A stretch of DNA of 64,000 bases, from contig NZ_CP035375.1 in NCBI RefSeq assembly GCF_004118935.1, forward strand, positions 2,542,001-2,606,000, read 5' to 3'. The stretch is from Salinibacterium sp. UTAS2018. GTDB lineage: Bacteria > Actinomycetota > Actinomycetes > Actinomycetales > Microbacteriaceae. Positions 7,819 through 37,085 of the stretch are shown here, in pieces (position 1 is the stretch's first letter; the number at the start of each line of letters is the position of its first letter). Made by a program: the position numbers and the translations under genes. The notes under the pieces are model-generated. The model saw nothing but the letters and a program-made list of their open reading frames with translations. It made no database searches and was not told where the DNA came from.

Positions 7819-8709
7819 GTGAAAAAAGGATACAAAAACTGGGGCCCACCGCTCCTCTTAATATCTCCGACGATTATCGTTCTCGGGATATTTGTTTATG
7901 GCTTGATCGGCGCCAACATCTCGGTGTCGCTCAGCAACCGGAACAGTCTTGTTCCCGCTACTGAGTTCGTTGGACTTGATAACTACATCGCTCTGTTTGG
8001 CGAAGAGCGCTTCATCCACTCGCTTCAGAACCTGGGTATCTTTACCCTCTTCTTTATCGGTGGCACCATGATCTTCGGATTCTTGTGGGCGTGGATGCTC
8101 GACAAGGGCGTCACCGCAGAGGGCGTTTTCCGCTCGGTGTTCCTCTTCCCCATGGCGATTTCGTTCGTGGCATCCGGTGTTGTCTGGCGCTGGTTGCTCA
8201 ACAGCGCTGAGGGCGACCGTGCATCTGGACTCAACCGGGTCTTCGAGAACCTCGGGCTCGACTTTCTCCAGAACTCGTGGTGGAACGATCCGACCTGGGG
8301 CATGGCGGCGATTGCATTGCCCGCTATCTGGCAGCTCGCCGGCTACGTCATGGCGCTCTTCCTTTCGGGCTTCCGTGGCATTCCTGAAGAGCTGCGTGAA
8401 GCAGCCCGCATGGATGGCGCTACCGAGTGGAAGCTCTACCGCTACGTGATCTTCCCCCAGCTGAGCCCCGTAGCCCTCTCCGCCCTCATCATCGTGGGCC
8501 ACATGTCGCTCAAGGTCTTCGACCTCATCATGGCGATCACGAAGTCGATCTACCAGACCGAGGTTCCCGCAACCTACCTCTGGGTCGCGTTGACCTCGAA
8601 CGACTACGCCAAGTCGGCCACGATCGCGACAATTCTGTTGCTCTTCGTTGCCGTCGTGATCGTTCCCTACCTGATCTACACCGCTCGCGCAGAGAAGAGG
8701 CAAGGATGA
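7819..8709 (+). CDS. Sugar ABC transporter permease, MalF/UgpA type
   Basis: The 296-residue inner-membrane protein has six predicted helices. The cytoplasmic coupling loop EELREAARMDGATEWKLYRYVIFPQLSP is the EAA motif that docks on the ATPase. It pairs with the next permease to form the channel for the sugar caught by the lipoprotein upstream. The GTG start has GAGGAG (7806-7811) seven bases ahead. Its stop codon overlaps the next start in ATGA, so the two permeases are translationally coupled. Confidence 0.92.
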   Translation: MKKGYKNWGPPLLLISPTIIVLGIFVYGLIGANISVSLSNRNSLVPATEFVGLDNYIALFGEERFIHSLQNLGIFTLFFIGGTMIFGFLWAWMLDKGVTAEGVFRSVFLFPMAISFVASGVVWRWLLNSAEGDRASGLNRVFENLGLDFLQNSWWNDPTWGMAAIALPAIWQLAGYVMALFLSGFRGIPEELREAARMDGATEWKLYRYVIFPQLSPVALSALIIVGHMSLKVFDLIMAITKSIYQTEVPATYLWVALTSNDYAKSATIATILLLFVAVVIVPYLIYTARAEKRQG

Positions 8710-9641
8710 GTGTCGCAACCGGACTCGACAAGAAGCCAAGCGAACCCACTACCGAGTCGCACATGCCGCAGAGTTCGGCGATCCGTGCGCGCGCTGGGTT
8801 GAGTCGCACCGCGAAGTACGTGCTGCTGGTGTTCTTCCTGGTCATTGTGTTGATGCCCGTGTACGTGCTTATCGTCACGAGCCTCAAGCCGCCGCAGGAC
8901 GTCAACCCCGCCACCTCGTGGGGGCTGCCGGTTCGCTGGCCGTGGGAGCCCGCCTTTGAGGGTGGACCCACCGGCTTCGACAACTGGGCTCTCGCGTGGA
9001 ACGCGCTGTCGGCATCCATCGGTCGCACGTTCTTGCTGGCGATTCCCGCCGCACTGATCGCGTCGTTCCTCGGAGCAATGAACGGTTTCGTTTTGGCCCG
9101 CTGGCGCTTCCCGTACGCCGATGTCGTCTTCACGTTCATCCTGTTCGGAATGTTCATTCCGTACCAGGCGATCATGACGCCGCTCGTGCAGATGAAGACA
9201 AGCCTCGGGTTGCCGAGCGATGTCTCCACGCTGTTGGTTGTGCACGTGATCTACGGTTTGCCGATCTGTACGTTGATCTTCCGCAACTACTACGCCGGCA
9301 TCCCTCACGAGTTGATGGAAGCAGCCCGTATGGATGGTTCGGGGATGCTGCGCACCTTCCGCAGCATCGTCTTGCCGCTGTCGCTTCCCGGCTTTGTGGT
9401 CACGATCATCTGGCAGTTCACGTCGGCCTGGAACGACTTCCTGTTCGCGCTGTTCCTGTCGAACCAGAACGAGGGGCCGGTGTCGCTCGCGCTCAACAAC
9501 CTGGCTCAGGGCGCGCAATTGGCCAACTACGGTGCTGCGATGGCGGGAGCGTTGCTTGCTTCGCTACCGACCCTCGTCGTGTACATCGTGCTCGGCAAGT
9601 ACTTCATCGGTGGACTGATGAGCGGCTCGGTCAAGAGCTAA
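8706..9641 (+). CDS. Sugar ABC transporter permease, MalG/UgpE type
   Basis: The 311-residue protein has six predicted helices and the EAA motif HELMEAARMDGSGMLRTFRSIVLPLSLPG, the pattern of the second permease in CUT1 sugar importers. The ATG at 8706 overlaps the TGA of the previous gene and gives MSVATGLDKKP; an open frame continues further upstream but is internal to the first permease gene. The C-terminus (YFIGGLMSGSVKS) is usual for the family. It is the last gene of the operon, followed by a strong terminator. Confidence 0.92.
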   Translation: MSVATGLDKKPSEPTTESHMPQSSAIRARAGLSRTAKYVLLVFFLVIVLMPVYVLIVTSLKPPQDVNPATSWGLPVRWPWEPAFEGGPTGFDNWALAWNALSASIGRTFLLAIPAALIASFLGAMNGFVLARWRFPYADVVFTFILFGMFIPYQAIMTPLVQMKTSLGLPSDVSTLLVVHVIYGLPICTLIFRNYYAGIPHELMEAARMDGSGMLRTFRSIVLPLSLPGFVVTIIWQFTSAWNDFLFALFLSNQNEGPVSLALNNLAQGAQLANYGAAMAGALLASLPTLVVYIVLGKYFIGGLMSGSVKS

Positions 9642-9661
9642 AGCACTCCGTGCGGCACTGA

Positions 9662-9708
9662 GCCGCGTCATCCTGTTCCGCTTCGGCGGGGCGGATGGCG
9701 CGGCTTTT
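9662..9708 (+). terminator. Rho-independent terminator of the sugar ABC operon
   Basis: GCCGCGTCATCC (9662-9673) pairs with GGATGGCGCGGC (9693-9704) with one G-U pair. Inside, CCGC-TTCG-GCGG makes a hairpin with a stable UUCG tetraloop, and TTTT follows at 9705-9708. Confidence 0.85.
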
Positions 9709-9797
9709 GTCGTGCGGTCCGGCGCTGGCGGCGGACGCGAGCGGCACGCGCTGGGCGCTGGGCGGGACGCGCTGGGATCCGAGCTGGGAGCTGAAAG

Positions 9798-10451
9798 CTA
9801 GGAGCTGAGCGTGCGCAAGTACGCGAGCGCAGCCATGAGGATAGCGGCGGTAGCGGCGGTTGCGCCGATCGCGACAGCGATAAAGGCCGTCGGATGCCGT
9901 TCAAAGAAGTACAACGACTCCGGGTAATCTTCCCGAATTTCGCCTGTCGAGACGGTGCCGGCAATGCGCGTCGTGGGAACAGAGAACGCTGCCGCGACGA
10001 GATCGAAGTGTTCGGGAGCCCAGTACTGACCACGCATTCGCAGCAGGCGGCGCTTATTGGGCCCCATCACAGCGAGCGTCGGCCGCGACTCTAATCCGTC
10101 GCTCGTGTAGACCTCGGCGACAAGCATGTGTTCGGCATCCGCCTTGTTGAAATGTACGGTGCGGCCAAAGAAGCCGCGTTCGCTCACCACGGGGGCCTCG
10201 GCGGAGAACCAGATCCCGATCCGGAAGTAGGCGACGATGGCGCCGACAGCCACGAGGATCGCCACGATCTGAGTGATGACGACGGCAAGCCACGGGCCGT
10301 CGGGGAGCACGATGATATACAGCACGCCGAAGACCGGGCCCAAGAATGCCAGCCCAGCGATGAGCCCGCGGTGATAGAGGCTGCGCGGAGGAACGATTCG
10401 CTGGCGTGGATCGCGAGAAGATAAATCGTAAGGATTGCTGTTTCGTGACAA
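9798..10451 (-). CDS. Membrane protein with PH-like domain, unknown function
   Basis: The protein (about 217 residues) has two helices near residues 30-75 (GLIAGLAFLGPVFGVLYIIVL and AVVITQIVAILVAVGAIVAYF), then a soluble middle part starting FSAEAPVVSERGFFGRTVHF, and a final helix (TAFIAVAIGATAATAAILMAALAYL). The order of two helices followed by a short beta-rich segment is like bacterial PH-domain membrane proteins, but I cannot assign a function. The TTG at 10449-10451 has AAAGGG seven bases upstream; a TTG two codons earlier is possible. The gene lies between the sugar operon terminator and tRNA-Ser. Confidence 0.6.
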   Translation of the reverse strand: MSRNSNPYDLSSRDPRQRIVPPRSLYHRGLIAGLAFLGPVFGVLYIIVLPDGPWLAVVITQIVAILVAVGAIVAYFRIGIWFSAEAPVVSERGFFGRTVHFNKADAEHMLVAEVYTSDGLESRPTLAVMGPNKRRLLRMRGQYWAPEHFDLVAAAFSVPTTRIAGTVSTGEIREDYPESLYFFERHPTAFIAVAIGATAATAAILMAALAYLRTLSS

Positions 10452-10500
10452 CGGCAATCCCTTTCGTCAGTTCGCGCCGCGCGACTTCAGCCTTATAGAG

Positions 10501-30879: not shown

Positions 30880-31611
30880 TTAGTGGCGAACGCGCGAGAG
30901 AAACTGCTGAGTCTCAGGCTCGTGAGGCGAGTCGAAGATCTGTGCCGGGGTTCCCTGCTCGACGATGCGGCCGCCCTGCATGAACACGATACGGTCGGCG
31001 ACTTCGCGCGCGAATGACATCTCGTGGGTCGCCATGAGAATCGTCGAACCGTCGGTCTTCAGTCGCCGTACGAGGTCGAGAACCTCGCCGACGAGCTGAG
31101 GGTCCAAAGCGCTAGTGATCTCGTCGAGAAGCAGCAACTCAGGGTCAGTCAGCACCGCACGGATGATGGCCACACGCTGCTGTTGGCCGCCGGAAAGGCG
31201 ATCGGGGTAATCCCGCGCTTTGTCGCCGAGGCCCAGAGAGACGAGCAGTGTCATCGCTCGCTCCGTGGCATCCGCCTTTGACATTCCGTGCACCTCGCGC
31301 GCGGCTAGCGTGATGTTGTCAATCACGCGCAAGTGCGGAAAGAGGTTGAAGTGTTGAAAGACCACACCGATGCGGCTGCGCGCTGAGTCGGCATTCATGC
31401 CCGGGTCGGTGATGTCATCATCGTTGAGCAGAATTTGGCCGTCATCCACACGTTCGATGAGGTTGATCGTTCGCAGCAGCGTCGATTTTCCCGAGCCCGA
31501 GGCGCCGATGAGAACGACGACCTCGTGCTTGTTGATCGAGAGATCGACCCCGCGCAAGACCTCCTGGTCACCAAACTGTTTGCGCACTCCGCGCACGTCG
31601 AGAACGGTCAT
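30880..31611 (-). CDS. Polar amino acid ABC transporter ATPase
   Basis: The 243-residue ATPase (MTVLDVRGVRKQFGDQEVLRGVDLS) has Walker A GASGSGKSTLLRTINLIE, signature LSGGQQQRVAI, Walker B LLLLDEITSALDP and the switch His in ATHEMSFA. This is the GlnQ/HisP/ArtP pattern of amino acid importers. The ATG at 31611 overlaps the permease stop in ATGA; a longer frame to 31659 has no ribosome site. It is the last gene of a six-gene minus-strand operon headed by an S-adenosylhomocysteinase-like gene. Confidence 0.93.
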   Translation of the reverse strand: MTVLDVRGVRKQFGDQEVLRGVDLSINKHEVVVLIGASGSGKSTLLRTINLIERVDDGQILLNDDDITDPGMNADSARSRIGVVFQHFNLFPHLRVIDNITLAAREVHGMSKADATERAMTLLVSLGLGDKARDYPDRLSGGQQQRVAIIRAVLTDPELLLLDEITSALDPQLVGEVLDLVRRLKTDGSTILMATHEMSFAREVADRIVFMQGGRIVEQGTPAQIFDSPHEPETQQFLSRVRH

Positions 31612-32474
31612 ACGACACCTCCGATCTGCTCGCGCTTGGCGAGTCGTGCGGTCAGCCAATCAGTGAGCCGAATCATGGGCCAGCTCATGGCAACAAAGAG
31701 CAGGGCCGCAATCACGTACGGGGTGAAGTTGTAGACCTGGGCGACCTGAATTTGGGCAGCTCGCACGGCATCCACTGCACCCAAAATCGAGATGAGACCC
31801 ACATCTTTTTGCATGGAGACGAAGTCATTCATGAGGGCGGGAACGACCTTGCGAACGCCCTGCGGGATGACGACGATGCGCAGGGTCTTGGCGTGACTGA
31901 GACCCAGCGATCGGGCGGCCATGCGCTGCGAAGGATGCACCGCTTCCATACCCGCTCGCAGTACCTCTGCGACGTAGGCCGAGTAGGTGAGGATGAGGGC
32001 AATCGTGCCCCAGAACATGGCGGGCATGCGCGGGAAAATATCGAGGGCAGGTAACCCGAAACCGACCAGATAGAGAACGATCAGCAGCGGCATCCCGCGA
32101 AAGAGATCGGTGTAGATCGTTGCCGCTGCGCGAAGCGGAAAGAAGACCGCCCCGCGCAACGACCGCGTCACGGCAAGCAGGGTGCCGAAGAGGGCAACGC
32201 CGATCGCTGAGATGAAAAGTACCTGGATGTTGAGCCACAGCCCCACGAGGATTGACGGAATGCTGGCCGCGCCCACCTCGAGGTTGAAGAACGACGCTTT
32301 GACGCTCTCCCAGCCGGGCGTGTTCACGATGAGCGCTCCAACAATCACGGCAAACGCGACAGTGCTCACGATGCCGATGAGCACGGAACGGCCGGTGGCG
32401 CGCCGCCGCACGCTCTGGCGCGACAGCTCAAGTTCGCTTGGCTGCCACGATGGCGTTCTGGTGGAGGAACTCAT
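31608..32474 (-). CDS. Polar amino acid ABC transporter permease
   Basis: The 288-residue inner-membrane protein belongs to the HisM/GlnP family. It has the coupling motif EVLRAGMEAVHPSQRMAARSLGLSHAKTLRIVVIPQGVRKVVPAL and five to six helices. A single permease gene suggests a homodimeric channel. It lies 10 bases after the binding-protein gene and overlaps the ATPase gene by four bases. Confidence 0.92.
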   Translation of the reverse strand: MSSSTRTPSWQPSELELSRQSVRRRATGRSVLIGIVSTVAFAVIVGALIVNTPGWESVKASFFNLEVGAASIPSILVGLWLNIQVLFISAIGVALFGTLLAVTRSLRGAVFFPLRAAATIYTDLFRGMPLLIVLYLVGFGLPALDIFPRMPAMFWGTIALILTYSAYVAEVLRAGMEAVHPSQRMAARSLGLSHAKTLRIVVIPQGVRKVVPALMNDFVSMQKDVGLISILGAVDAVRAAQIQVAQVYNFTPYVIAALLFVAMSWPMIRLTDWLTARLAKREQIGGVV

Positions 32475-32484
32475 CGACGTGTTC

Positions 32485-33333
32485 TTACTTCAAGACGGGA
32501 ACGTCAACGGCAGCGCTGAGCCACTCGTCTTGAATGGACTGAAGGGTTCCGTCAGCGGCAAGCGCATCCAGCGCTTCACTCACCGGGGAGGTCAGCTCGG
32601 AATCCTTGGGGAGCACGAAGGCGAATTCGTCTCCTCCAGCGGAGGACTCGAACTGGCCAAGAATAACGCCGCCGTCGATTTCAACCGTGGCGAGGTAAAA
32701 CGCGCTGGGCAGGTCGATGACGAAAGCATCGATCTGGCCGCTGGTCAATGCGAGAACGCCGTCTTCGTTGGAGTTGAAGACCGAGAGGTCGTCCCCCAGA
32801 GCTTCGGCGGCGATTGTGTAGCTGGTGCTGCCACTGGCTACGCCGACGACGACGTTCTTGAGGTCAGCGATCGAGGTGGCACCGGCTGCGGCCGAGCTCT
32901 CGGTGGCGATGACGGCCTGAGTGGTCGTGTAGTACGGGCTGGAGAAGTCGACGGCTTGCTTGCGGTCTTCGGTAATCGAGAATTGCTGCATGTTGAGGTC
33001 CCAGTCCTTGGGGCCCGGTGCGATCGCACTGTCGAAGCTCGAGCGAACCCAGACAACGTCATCCGCGGCGAAGCCGAGTTCGTCGGCCAAGGCGTAGGCC
33101 ACGGCAGCTTCGAAGCCTTCGCCGTTCGAGGGCTCGTTGTCGACGACCCAGGGCGCGTAGGCGGGCTCGCCGGTGGCAATGGTGAGCTTGCCCGCCGTGA
33201 GGGTGGGCAGCGATCCGTCGTCGACGGTCGTGCTGCTGTCAGCGGTGGTGTCTGCGGTGCAGGCGGTTAAAGCCAGAACAGCTGCTGCTGCGGTGGCGAC
33301 GAGGGCCCGACGAAAATGCCGTGATGAGGTCAT
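32485..33333 (-). CDS. Amino acid ABC transporter substrate-binding lipoprotein
   Basis: The 282-residue protein begins with a lipoprotein signal ending LALTACTAD and continues with a family 3 solute-binding domain (LTIATGEPAYAPWVVDNEP, then GFEAAVAYALADELGF). These proteins bind polar amino acids or related amines outside the membrane. The ATG at 33333 has AGGAG about seven bases ahead; a longer frame to 33474 is not supported. Its position downstream of nucleoside- and homocysteine-type enzymes makes methionine-related or S-ribosyl/adenosyl amino acids possible ligands (inference). Confidence 0.92.
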   Translation of the reverse strand: MTSSRHFRRALVATAAAAVLALTACTADTTADSSTTVDDGSLPTLTAGKLTIATGEPAYAPWVVDNEPSNGEGFEAAVAYALADELGFAADDVVWVRSSFDSAIAPGPKDWDLNMQQFSITEDRKQAVDFSSPYYTTTQAVIATESSAAAGATSIADLKNVVVGVASGSTSYTIAAEALGDDLSVFNSNEDGVLALTSGQIDAFVIDLPSAFYLATVEIDGGVILGQFESSAGGDEFAFVLPKDSELTSPVSEALDALAADGTLQSIQDEWLSAAVDVPVLK

Positions 33334-33422
33334 GGAAGTCTCCTGTTGCTGTGCGTGAGGTGGTTGAACAAACGTCACCCGAGTGGTGCTGTGCTCGGGC
33401 GGAGAAACGGGGTGCAGACTTG

Positions 33423-33899
33423 CTAGTTTACAAGTCGCCAGTCTGCAAAGTCGAAACCGGGTGACACAAAGCAACTGACCAGCACTTCGGCGTCCGCGGT
33501 CAGGCGACCGGCCTGCCAGACGCCAGCCGGAACGATGACTTGAGCGACGTGCCCGTTGGCGAGATCCGGCCCGAGCACGAGACGCTCGGCGTGTGCTTCG
33601 TCGGGCAGATCACCGTTGCCACCGAGCGAAAGCTCCAGCGTTCCGGGGCCGTGCCACAGCCAGATTTCATCGTTGGCTACGACGTGCCAGTCACTGTGCT
33701 CGCCGGGAACCAGCAGGTAGTGGATGCAGGTGGCTGATGGGCGTGCACCATTCGGAGTCTCGACCGGGCTGGTACCCGCCCAGGTGCGGCGGAACCAACC
33801 GCCTTCGGGATGCGACTCGAGGTTGAGAAGCTGCGCGGTTACCGGGCGGGTATCGCCGGCAACGTTAGCGGCATCGGAAGAAACAGTGGGATCAGTCAT
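33423..33899 (-). CDS. Cupin-superfamily protein, DUF985 type
   Basis: The 158-residue protein has the segments LNLESHPEGGWFRRTWAG, SATCIHYLLVPGEHSDWHVV and NDEIWLWHGPGTLELSL, which fit the small DUF985 cupins. These are beta-barrels, some of which bind sugar-like or metal ligands; no reaction is settled. The start overlaps the end of the amidohydrolase gene by eight bases, so the two are translated together. This suggests a role in the same pathway, for example on a sugar-containing product of the upstream enzymes (inference). Confidence 0.8.
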   Translation of the reverse strand: MTDPTVSSDAANVAGDTRPVTAQLLNLESHPEGGWFRRTWAGTSPVETPNGARPSATCIHYLLVPGEHSDWHVVANDEIWLWHGPGTLELSLGGNGDLPDEAHAERLVLGPDLANGHVAQVIVPAGVWQAGRLTADAEVLVSCFVSPGFDFADWRLVN

Positions 33900-35250
33900 G
33901 AGCGGTCACTCCGGTCTTGTTCGTGAAGTTGGTGCTGGCAAATCTGACGCGCCCGGAGACGAGCGTGGCGGCGGCGCGCCCAGCGCCTGATTCGACGAGC
34001 GTCGCGATCGTGTCGTCGATGGTGGTGACGGGGATGTCGAAGAAAGCGAGGTCAGCGAGCGCCCCAACGGCGAGGTGACCCGTGCGGTCGGGGCCGACGT
34101 CGATGCCCATCGCGTGAGCGCCGCCGAGAGTGGCCGCGCGCAGCAGTCGCTCTGGTAGATCACGCATGGTGTGGCCCTGAGAATGAGCGATGCGCGAAAG
34201 CTCAGCGACATCCGCCATGAGGTCGAGCGAGGGGCTCGATGACAGCGAGTCGGTACCGATGGCAAGCGCGTTGCCCTCGGCCAGATAGGCGGCCACGGGA
34301 GGCTCGTCAAGACCGATAACGGCGTTGGAGCGGGGGCAGAGGGCCACGCTCGTGCCGCGAGCCCGCAAAAGGGCACGATCACGCGCGGTCATATAGATTC
34401 CATGGGCGATATGGCAGTCGGGCCCGAGCACGCCAAGCTGGTCGACGAATTCGGTGGCACCAGTGCCGAAACCCGCGGCGCGCAGTTCACGAAAGCTGCC
34501 CAGTTCGCGGCCGTGCCACGGGTCGCCGTGCTCGTGGTGAAACTCGCGCTCGAACGCTGCTTCGCCCAGGTGCAGGTGAAGACGGCTTCCGCGCTCGCGA
34601 ACGATGTCGGGGATTTCGAGCAGTGGCACGACCTCGAGCGAGTACGGTGCGTGCGGCGACAGCCCGGTTCCGGGAGGGGACGGCAGGGCATCCAGAGCAG
34701 CCTCAACCTGCTGGCGCCCGGTGCGGGCCCAGTCGTCATTGGTCCAGCTCATCACTTCCCAGTACGTGATGCCGTGTAATCCCGCATTGTGCAGCGCAGC
34801 GGATGCCTCACCATCGGTCACGATGTCGGCGACGGCGGTGGTGCCGGCTTCGATCATGAGCTGAGCGCCTGCCGCGGCATCCGCAGCCCAGTCGTGGGGT
34901 TGCTCGTATACGGGGTTGAACGCGGTGGACCAGTCGTCGAAGTCCTCGTACTGCCCGCGGCCGACCTCGGCCATGCCGGTGTATTGCAGGTGGGTGTGCG
35001 CGTTCACGAGGCCGGGCATGAGAACACCGGGCCAGTGGATTTCGCGCGCACCGATCCCGCGATCGGCGAGAGAGCGGCGAACCCAGTCGCGCTCGCCGAC
35101 GTGCAGAATGCGGCCGTCGCGCACGGCGATGGCGCCGTTCAGTAGCGGGGGAGCGGTGATGGGAATAACGAGATTGGCGGTGTACAGCACCACCGGGTGG
35201 TCGGCATCGCTCGAGGTGAGCATGGATGCCGCGGGATGGAGGTTACTCAT
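33892..35250 (-). CDS. Amidohydrolase, nucleoside-deaminase-like
   Basis: The 452-residue protein is a metal-dependent hydrolase. It shows the metal-binding NAHTHLQYTG near residue 86, SPHAPYS, the HLHLGE strand, HGIYM, LCPRSN and GTDSLSSS. This set occurs in the TrzN/AtzA-SAH/MTA deaminase and aminofutalosine deaminase branches. The neighbour upstream resembles S-adenosylhomocysteinase and shares an ATGA overlap, so deamination of S-adenosylhomocysteine, methylthioadenosine or aminofutalosine is plausible. Aminofutalosine deaminase for menaquinone is the main alternative, but no other futalosine gene is present here. The ATG has AGGAAA ahead of it. Confidence 0.75.
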   Translation of the reverse strand: MSNLHPAASMLTSSDADHPVVLYTANLVIPITAPPLLNGAIAVRDGRILHVGERDWVRRSLADRGIGAREIHWPGVLMPGLVNAHTHLQYTGMAEVGRGQYEDFDDWSTAFNPVYEQPHDWAADAAAGAQLMIEAGTTAVADIVTDGEASAALHNAGLHGITYWEVMSWTNDDWARTGRQQVEAALDALPSPPGTGLSPHAPYSLEVVPLLEIPDIVRERGSRLHLHLGEAAFEREFHHEHGDPWHGRELGSFRELRAAGFGTGATEFVDQLGVLGPDCHIAHGIYMTARDRALLRARGTSVALCPRSNAVIGLDEPPVAAYLAEGNALAIGTDSLSSSPSLDLMADVAELSRIAHSQGHTMRDLPERLLRAATLGGAHAMGIDVGPDRTGHLAVGALADLAFFDIPVTTIDDTIATLVESGAGRAAATLVSGRVRFASTNFTNKTGVTAHD

Positions 35251-36788
35251 CGGGTTTCCTGATTCGGTGAAGAGCTGAGGTAGCGGCGGGAGCGCCAGTC
35301 ATGGGCTGCCGCGACTTGCGCGTCGGCGGGAGTGTCGATGCGCTCACCGCGAGCAGCGAGGGCAGCGCGAGCGACGGTGTCGTCGATGCTCGGCGGAAGC
35401 GCATGAACCCCAACGGGTGGTCGTGTGACGACAATTTCTTCGACAGCGGCAAGCTGAACGGCGAACGAGAGATCCATGATCTCAATCGGGTTGCCTTCGG
35501 CCGCGGTGATATTGATGCAGCCGCCACGGTCGAGCACGAGAGTCCCCGCGGGCTCGGCGCGTTCAACGTGCGCGGCGAGAGAAGTCAGCTGTTCCACAGG
35601 GTTACCCGTGAGCAGTCCATCGAGATCGAGCTCTCCGGGCACGCCGCCCGCGACCGCCACCGCCCGTGCGGCGCGAGCCAGGTCGGCGCTGATCGTGTGG
35701 GCAACACCGGTGCTCGAGACGATGAGGGCGCCGGCGCCGAGCAGGGCAGCCTCGCCGATCTCGTAACCATCATGCGCGGCGCGAAGAGCGAGCACGGGGT
35801 CGACTTCGGCCACGCGCACCGTGGCTCCGAGTGCCGCCAAGTGAGCGGCGACACCCTCACCCACGGGGCCATAACCGATCACGAGAGCGGGCTGATCGCG
35901 CACCGTCACACCCACTCGGTCGAGAGCATCCGCGATCGCGAACACACACGACTGGCCCGTGCCGTAACGGTTATCGAAACGCGTTTTCATGTGAGCGTCA
36001 TTGACCGCAAACACGGCGGTGCCGAGGATGCCCAGAGCACTCATCTGACGAAGTGGCGTCAAACCGCTCGTCGTCTCCTCATTGGTGCCGATCCAGTTCT
36101 TCACCAGGTGCGGAGCATCCTCGTGAGCGAGGCGGATGAGGTGCGAACCATCGTCGAGCAGGATGTCGAAGCCGCGTTCAAGGAACGCCAGCGCAGCAGC
36201 GCGCTCGGCCTGCCCGCTCAGTGTCTCGGAGCCATCGACCGCGACGCCCCGCGCCCGCAGCGCCTCGGCAACAGACGCGTCGATTTCATCCGGATGCGCA
36301 TAGACCGCCACATCGGCACCCGCAGCAGCAAGCAAGAGCGCCAATTGGGCAGTCTTGGGCTCGAGCACCATCGCGATACCGATGCGGAGGCCCTGTACGG
36401 AGCTGCGCTCGCCGAGGCCGTCCGCCACGAGTCGCGAGACGGGCATGTGTTCCCCGGCAAAATCGATGCGGCCGTCGGCATCGCCGCGCGCTGGAAGGGG
36501 AGTGCCGCCCAGGCGGAATAGCGCGGTGATCTCCGAGTCGGGGCCAGCGGCATCCAACTGGATGTCGAGGAGCTGAGCGGAGGCAGCGGCGGCATTGTCG
36601 CGGCCAGCATCCACCACGTGGGCACCCAGCGCACTGAGCATTCGCGTTAGTGCACGAGAAGTGGCGATGAGCTGAGAATTCTCGGGACGAGACGCGCTGA
36701 CGCGCACGCTACGGCCGGCGACCAAAAGGTTAGTGTCGCGGGCAAAACGGCGAATGATTCGCTCGGCTATTACTGTTACGTCGGCCAC
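35247..36788 (-). CDS. S-adenosylhomocysteinase-like NAD protein, altered active site
   Basis: The 513-residue protein keeps the frame of S-adenosylhomocysteine hydrolase. NEETTSGLTPLRQM matches the EETTTG segment. NDAHMKTRFDNRYG keeps the equivalents of the ribose-binding Lys and Asp (Lys268, Asp272), and IGYGPVGEGVAAHLAALGATVRVAEVDP is the NAD fold. The C-terminal CINITAAEGNPIEIMDLSF corresponds to the EGHPSxVMDMSF motif of archaeal-type enzymes but has Asn433 for the adenine-site His. The usual GHFD is GGVPGELD, and the N-terminal His of the substrate site is missing. It may use another nucleoside thioether, for example S-inosylhomocysteine, or have lost activity. It is the first gene of the operon; the GTG is leaderless-like. 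Confidence 0.75.
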   Translation of the reverse strand: MADVTVIAERIIRRFARDTNLLVAGRSVRVSASRPENSQLIATSRALTRMLSALGAHVVDAGRDNAAAASAQLLDIQLDAAGPDSEITALFRLGGTPLPARGDADGRIDFAGEHMPVSRLVADGLGERSSVQGLRIGIAMVLEPKTAQLALLLAAAGADVAVYAHPDEIDASVAEALRARGVAVDGSETLSGQAERAAALAFLERGFDILLDDGSHLIRLAHEDAPHLVKNWIGTNEETTSGLTPLRQMSALGILGTAVFAVNDAHMKTRFDNRYGTGQSCVFAIADALDRVGVTVRDQPALVIGYGPVGEGVAAHLAALGATVRVAEVDPVLALRAAHDGYEIGEAALLGAGALIVSSTGVAHTISADLARAARAVAVAGGVPGELDLDGLLTGNPVEQLTSLAAHVERAEPAGTLVLDRGGCINITAAEGNPIEIMDLSFAVQLAAVEEIVVTRPPVGVHALPPSIDDTVARAALAARGERIDTPADAQVAAAHDWRSRRYLSSSPNQETR

Positions 36789-36794
36789 TTGTCA

Positions 36795-36800
36795 AGAGTA
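36795..36800 (-). promoter_or_regulatory. -10 element TACTCT of the six-gene minus-strand operon
   Basis: On the minus strand TACTCT is followed after six bases (TGACAA) by the GTG at 36788, which suggests a leaderless mRNA for the whole operon. Confidence 0.5.
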
Positions 36801-36877
36801 GGGCACCATTCGGGGGACCACTGAACGACGCTTCTTCGCCGGAACCAACATCGCACGGCGGATCCCGTACTGCGCCA

Positions 36878-36920
36878 CGGAGTGCGCTGCACTATGGAGT
36901 GCGCTGCACCACGGAGTGCC
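36878..36920. repeat. 2.5 copies of a 17-bp tandem repeat with palindromic cores
   Basis: Units at 36878-36894 and 36895-36911 and a half unit at 36912-36920 share GGAGTGC. Each full unit contains the palindrome GTGC-GCT-GCAC (36882-36892 and 36899-36909). They lie about 80-120 bases upstream of the minus-strand operon start and downstream of the tRNA-Pro terminator, so a pair of operators for that operon is possible. Confidence 0.55.
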
Positions 36921-36934
36921 CCGCTGAAAACACA

Positions 36935-36960
36935 AATCGCCCTCCCGAAGGAGAGCGATT
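36935..36960 (-). terminator. Rho-independent terminator of tRNA-Pro
   Basis: On the minus strand AATCGC-T-CTCC-TTCG-GGAG-G-GCGATT folds into a stem with a UUCG-type loop. A T-rich stretch (TTTGTGTTTT) follows. It separates the tRNA from the SAH-like operon downstream. Confidence 0.75.
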
Positions 36961-37011
36961 AGTGGACCGTCTCTGAGAATCGCAGTTCTGCGGCTCAAAG
37001 CCAGTGGTTTG

Positions 37012-37085
<74 letters not shown>

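Follow-up and report, generated by a model that had tools for sequence, protein, structure and literature searches.

A six-gene operon of Salinibacterium sp. UTAS2018 pairing a divergent S-adenosylhomocysteine hydrolase-like protein with a probable nucleoside deaminase: a possible route for scavenging 5′-substituted adenosines

The closest described counterparts of the locus considered here are the S-adenosylhomocysteine (SAH) hydrolases (SAHHs) that prefer S-inosylhomocysteine (SIH) and carry an HxExK motif (P. furiosus; M. maripaludis, structure 7R3A; T. maritima), together with the DadD deaminase route. According to PMC10978960, the Glu and Lys of this motif go with hypoxanthine substrates. 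A six-gene operon of Salinibacterium sp. UTAS2018 differs from this system in adding a linked importer, a cupin, and an extra N-terminal domain on its SAHH-like protein, and in a setting that is bacterial, patchy and, on our reading, catabolic. It was read within a window of 64,000 nucleotides (positions 2,542,001 to 2,606,000 of NZ_CP035375.1, the single contig of a 2,995,446-base genome), where all six genes are encoded on the minus strand, between 36788 and 30880; the coordinates bear out the 4-, 8- and 4-base overlaps between genes described in an earlier note on this DNA. We propose, with a probability of roughly 0.45, that the operon encodes a catabolic scavenging pathway for a 5′-substituted adenosine bearing an alpha-amino acid. 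The proposal builds on gene order, fold, residue conservation and a separate clade, from which we infer every reaction and the substrate.

The SAHH-like protein (35247..36788, 513 aa; PF00670/PF05221) scores 58.2 bits against PF00670 (cut-off 27), and its structural model has the SAHH fold (predicted local distance difference test, pLDDT, 94), nearest to the archaeal/Thermotoga type. Ahead of this fold is an N-terminal extension of about 100 residues (roughly 1–100), which in BLASTP gives weak matches to the protein's own NAD domain (E 0.10 and 0.024). The NAD-binding domain, the fold and the Lys, Asp and Asn of 3′ oxidation are shared with canonical adenosylhomocysteinase, but the HxTxQ(E) motif with its catalytic His, and the gate, are not. 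The protein falls well short of the canonical model TIGR00936 (223.1 bits; cut-off 497.6), as do the A-type paralogue and the second SAHH-like gene of this genome, L001, both discussed below (359.6 and 344.3). It narrowly misses the broader NCBI model NF004005 (271.6; cut-off 275), which a relative from Roseateles (413.6) and L001 (369.9) pass.

Comparison with the SIH-preferring enzymes gives a similarly mixed picture. The Glu and Lys of HxExK are present, as is the fold, though the fold does not discriminate; the His of HxExK and the GHF gate, as in 7r3a, are absent. The gate and tail loops are rebuilt, and the replacements are VxExK for HxExK, with Val141 at the catalytic-His site; HPDE for STQDD; DDGSH for DDGGD/DDGAD; GGVPGE for GHF, within AGGVPGELD; and EGNPIEIMD, which contains Asn433, for GHP. 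The altered residues reported in the earlier note (Asn433, GGVPGELD, a missing N-terminal His) are real; the note did not mention the N-terminal extension, the ExK pair or L001. The likeness to SIH hydrolase that it drew does not extend to the catalytic centre: the M. maripaludis enzyme keeps the His, STQDD, GHFD and GHP, all four of which the window protein has lost.

These features characterize a family rather than one protein. Related loci (the best 80 of 246, mostly from Microbacterium and Demequina) were recruited by two motifs, a caveat for the conservation figures that follow. Over 81 aligned rows (the window and the 80 loci), the catalytic-His column contains V in 52, T in 25, F in 3 and M in 1, and never His, while Glu143 and Lys145 (ExK) are invariant; Lys268, Asp272 and Asn273 (3′ oxidation), the NAD motif, and the DDG motif, which holds the C4′-proton acceptor, are each kept at 97% or more. 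In a maximum-likelihood tree of 31 rows, the 17 rows of this kind (hereafter B type) separate with support 100/100, and L001 forms a long branch; one Demequina row nests among those of Microbacteriaceae, suggesting transfer. Among the best 120 relatives in each of two listings, all those with a source name are called “adenosylhomocysteinase.” Since the catalytic His is gone from every aligned B-type row, the clade is probably mislabelled.

Loss of the catalytic His and gate might suggest that the B type is a non-catalytic sensor or partner of the deaminase or of an A-type enzyme, a role like that ascribed to AHCYL proteins; an intact-looking paralogue does adjoin it in three clusters. The conservation of the NAD motif and of Lys268, Asp272 and Asn273, even allowing for recruitment by motifs, makes this highly unlikely, and no A type stands beside the B type in the window lineage. 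A working oxidation step could alternatively serve another end, the 3′-keto intermediate leading to base release through C2′/C1′, or to epimerization, with no 5′ cleavage. Retention of the oxidation residues and loss of the 5′-side acid fit such a scheme, as does the free base that ordinary SAHHs give as a side product (PMC10978960). It is very doubtful, however, given that the DDG motif with its C4′-proton acceptor is kept. We know of no precedent for either reaction in the SAHH fold.

The second gene (33892..35250; PF01979) overlaps the first by 4 bases and encodes an amidohydrolase. By sequence, its nearest solved relatives are AtzA and a group of adenosine/5′-methylthioadenosine (MTA) deaminases and amidohydrolases. 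By structure (best of five models pLDDT 89, the other four 71–85), 4f0r ranks first, followed by 4dzh, 3lnp, 4f0s, 4gbd (two chains) and 4dyk. Of these seven rows, 3lnp is labelled just amidohydrolase and the other six adenosine deaminase or a homologue; AtzA and the aminofutalosine deaminases rank lower. His85, His87, His227, Glu230, His283 and Asp334 are invariant in 35 rows and form an HxH, H, E, H, D arrangement, also seen against 4dyk/3lnp, which we take to be the metal and catalytic pattern. The known adenosine/MTA/SAH deaminases (4f0r, 4dzh, 4gbd; TM0936) share this fold and metal-site pattern; identity to the three structures is 23–26%, and the window protein has CPRSN where 4dyk has CPESN. 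The aminofutalosine deaminases (3v7p/4m51, 7lkj), which act on adenosine with a 5′ extension, belong to the same amidohydrolase group. No equivalog cut-off is passed: NF012037 (MTA/SAH deaminase) gives 57.7 bits against 779, and NF006269 (aminofutalosine deaminase) 101.1 against 320. Judged from the model, the protein is a probable nucleoside deaminase, closest to the adenosine/MTA type.

Downstream, with an 8-base overlap, is a DUF985 cupin (33423..33899; PF06172, 141.6 bits, cut-off 25). The earlier note suggested that it might act on the sugar part of the substrate; nothing supports this, and several clusters lack the cupin altogether. Then come a lipoprotein (32485..33333, most likely starting at the ATG at 33333), which is a family-3, polar amino acid type substrate-binding protein (PF00497, 79 bits, cut-off 26.4); an ATP-binding cassette (ABC) permease of polar amino acid type (31608..32474; PF00528); and, overlapping it by 4 bases, an EhuA/GlnQ-like ABC ATPase of the same type (30880..31611; PF00005), whose start is most likely the internal ATG at 31611. 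One binding protein, one permease and one ATPase is also the composition of the family-3 polar amino acid importers (GlnHPQ, Ehu), whose Arg and Asp are kept: Arg140 and Asp223 (numbered on the 298-residue query), presumably the amino-acid ligand residues, are conserved at 90% or more in 74 rows, after removal of six mis-started ones. The importer proteins fall below the substrate-specific family cut-offs examined.

The gene order is not peculiar to one strain, a point the earlier note had left for checking. In all 80 loci the deaminase gene follows the SAHH-like gene; the cupin turns up in 77 (L006 and L011 lack it, while the L025 stretch ends first), and the three importer genes in 79, 78 and 77, the misses (L025, L028, L034) being at stretch ends. 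The importer of L070 and L073 is placed upstream and runs in the opposite direction. The genera are Microbacterium, Demequina, Salinibacterium, Agromyces, Frigoribacterium, Frondihabitans, Curtobacterium, Leifsonia and Humibacter, with a few metagenome-assembled genomes. No further genes were seen to accompany the operon across genera in these loci: gene clusters present in as many as 24 of these loci were rejected as partners, the large ones being Demequina-only flanks or a single group of loci and the mixed ones apparently spurious frames over operon genes.

A second sample shows more variation. Of 120 Microbacteriaceae genomes, 25 carry the SAHH-like protein (>190 bits). Among the 24 carriers other than UTAS2018, 22 have the deaminase (one miss is at a contig end, the other is L135), with the amino-acid importer in 19 of these 22 and the cupin in 17; the two enzyme genes are not adjoining in six (L119, L120, L123, L130, L131, L132). 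L135 itself (8687–10474) is a lone degenerate copy with decayed motifs (DPKI, DSDSH, no EETT) and no deaminase in the fetched stretch. L119 has a LacI regulator upstream and, between the two enzymes, an energy-coupling factor (ECF) transporter with a riboflavin-type S component (L119:10225-13340), whose ligand could name the substrate; L120 resembles it in the parts recognized by eye. L132 has a major facilitator superfamily (MFS) protein and a carboxylesterase between the enzymes, alongside the amino-acid importer. The MFS and carboxylesterase genes and other inserted ones (DUF3800, DUF222, a frame in L130) were taken as local and not as parts of the pathway.

Other clusters carry a short B type or an A-type paralogue. 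L131 combines LacI, an A type that looks intact (HxExK, GHH, GHP), a short B type lacking the extension, a sugar-type importer and the deaminase; a plasmid record of Roseateles sp. XES5 (UNVERIFIED_ORG) shares this set and adds to it an ABC ATPase, as well as a nucleoside hydrolase that passes no family cut-off. In L173 (same phylum, by kinship another class) A, B, deaminase and amino-acid importer occur together, and L177 has B and deaminase, with matches nearby to a nucleoside hydrolase (34%) and, distantly, to sugar-type importers (25–30%). Source names of short B types, among the matches listed, are Microbacterium, Agromyces, Leucobacter, Kribbella, Nocardioidaceae, Nordella, Mesorhizobium and Chloroflexota. 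Matches in a phylum-wide search with A6 seem, from the loci whose motifs were read, to be mostly other SAHHs, and are not a census of the B type. Separately, L085–L113, from other actinobacteria, have a second SAHH-like gene immediately next to another SAHH gene (two matches in 25 of 29 loci); the rows read have mostly HxTxE with GHP, and the neighbour is canonical where read.

The dedicated amino acid importer proposed in the earlier note is thus common but not universal, being replaced by ECF or sugar-type systems in some variant clusters. These variants favour a substrate with no amino acid, such as MTA or another 5′-thio- or 5′-ether adenosine, which would be deaminated and cut at C5′ to give inosine; the lost homocysteine-channel motifs and the deaminase's resemblance to 4f0r (named MTA/SAH deaminase) and 4gbd (with methylthio-coformycin) point the same way. 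It is nonetheless unlikely, since most clusters have an importer of amino-acid type and the binding protein keeps the amino-acid ligands.

In the proposed pathway for an amino acid-bearing adenosine, the lipoprotein and ABC transporter would take up the 5′-substituted nucleoside, and the amidohydrolase would convert its adenine to hypoxanthine. The B-type enzyme would then hold the hypoxanthine nucleoside through Glu143 and Lys145 and oxidize its 3′-OH with bound NAD+ (Lys268, Asp272, Asn273); an Asp of the DDG motif would accept the C4′ proton and the 5′ substituent would leave, after which addition of water and reduction of the ketone would yield inosine and the leaving group. Purine and ribose salvage would take up the inosine. 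The order, deamination before cutting, is supported by the ExK pair, and the importer argues for an amino-acid end on the substrate in most lineages. The deaminate-then-cleave layout of the earlier note is supported by this pair, by the adenosine/MTA-type deaminase model and by the nucleoside hydrolase in a sister cluster; its homocysteine part is not upheld. Homocysteine in its usual pose is unlikely to be the leaving group, because the thiolate-protonating His and the homocysteine-channel loops are replaced. His165 or His216 might stand in for the missing acid, or none may be needed with a neutral leaving group, as from a sulfonium. Under this last variant, deamination of imported S-adenosylmethionine (SAM), or of a sulfonium nucleoside related to it, would be followed by cleavage into inosine and methionine, and the A-type paralogue, with its His, would handle SAH/SIH; the His would be dispensable, a proton donor being needed for homocysteine thiolate and not for a neutral thioether. 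That the B types are the first known enzymes to cut sulfonium nucleosides by SAHH chemistry is, however, quite improbable.

A different role for the operon would be household SAH recycling, with SAH deaminated and SIH hydrolysed. The UTAS2018 genome has no ahcY above the TIGR00936 cut-off, no LuxS and no MTA/SAH nucleosidase match (its sole PF01048 match reads, by sequence, as a purine nucleoside phosphorylase), so a link through LuxS or MTA nucleosidase was rejected; the ExK motif and deaminase would suit SIH, and ahcY is rarer in carriers (14 of 25, against 77 of 95 non-carriers; p 0.016). Absence of both ahcY and luxS, however, is similar in the two groups (4/25 and 6/95, p 0.21): seven further carriers have luxS, leaving only UTAS2018, G005, G043 and G075 with neither. 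In the genus, the SAHH-like protein is present in 2 of 21 genomes (963 and 1073 bits; all other matches are at most 135 bits), and in 3 of 12 in another sample.

The earlier note would have counted against its scheme a genome with no other ahcY in which this protein hydrolyses SAH normally. No other ahcY is indeed found above the TIGR00936 cut-off, but the genome does have L001 (L001:1453-2628; G000:C1 near 2646902-2648056), a second, divergent SAHH-like gene. It keeps HxExK, STQDD and GHFD, has substitutions at the GHP His and at the 3′-oxidation Lys and Asp, and adjoins a uridine-type nucleoside hydrolase and, by eye, an IclR-like frame. The hydrolase was dropped as part of a purine route because its score is over the cut-off for uridine hydrolases (UriH; 520.8 against 450). 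Genes of L001 type (330–361 bits) occur in all 10 genus genomes lacking ahcY and in 2 of 11 that have it (p 2e-4, kinship ignored; n = 21); four genomes with ahcY show another match, of about 258 bits. The L001 type is likely a stand-in for ahcY, though itself without the Lys and Asp of 3′ oxidation. With ahcY or luxS in 21 of 25 carriers and the SAHH-like protein in just 2 of 21 genus genomes, we read the operon as an accessory trait rather than as household SAH recycling; its distribution, the L001 type in every genus genome without ahcY, the lost catalytic His and an importer with no place in such recycling make the household role very unlikely.

Directly upstream of the operon is a tRNA-Pro (cgg) gene (37011-37085, minus strand); an open reading frame overlapping it (36792-37079) is probably spurious. 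Between the tRNA and the operon, GTGCAGCGCACTCC occurs as two exact copies 17 bases apart (36879-36909; 0.06 expected by chance in the window). It was rejected as an operator, being missing upstream in nine relatives checked, Salinibacterium included. At gathering scores, an RNA scan of the window for riboswitches gave tRNAs and signal recognition particle RNA alone, and one of seven loci gave a sole match, to guanidine-III (L132:1816-1881), away from the operon.

A literature search, which covered few subscription papers, found no description of an importer-deaminase-SAHH module. Its conservation would show bacteria scavenging nucleosyl compounds from outside, and would affect methyl-cycle models of the carrier genomes. 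The B-type enzymes offer a direct test of the SAHH mechanism without its acid; if the sulfonium variant were true, the operon would be a pathway devoted to the consumption of SAM-class compounds.
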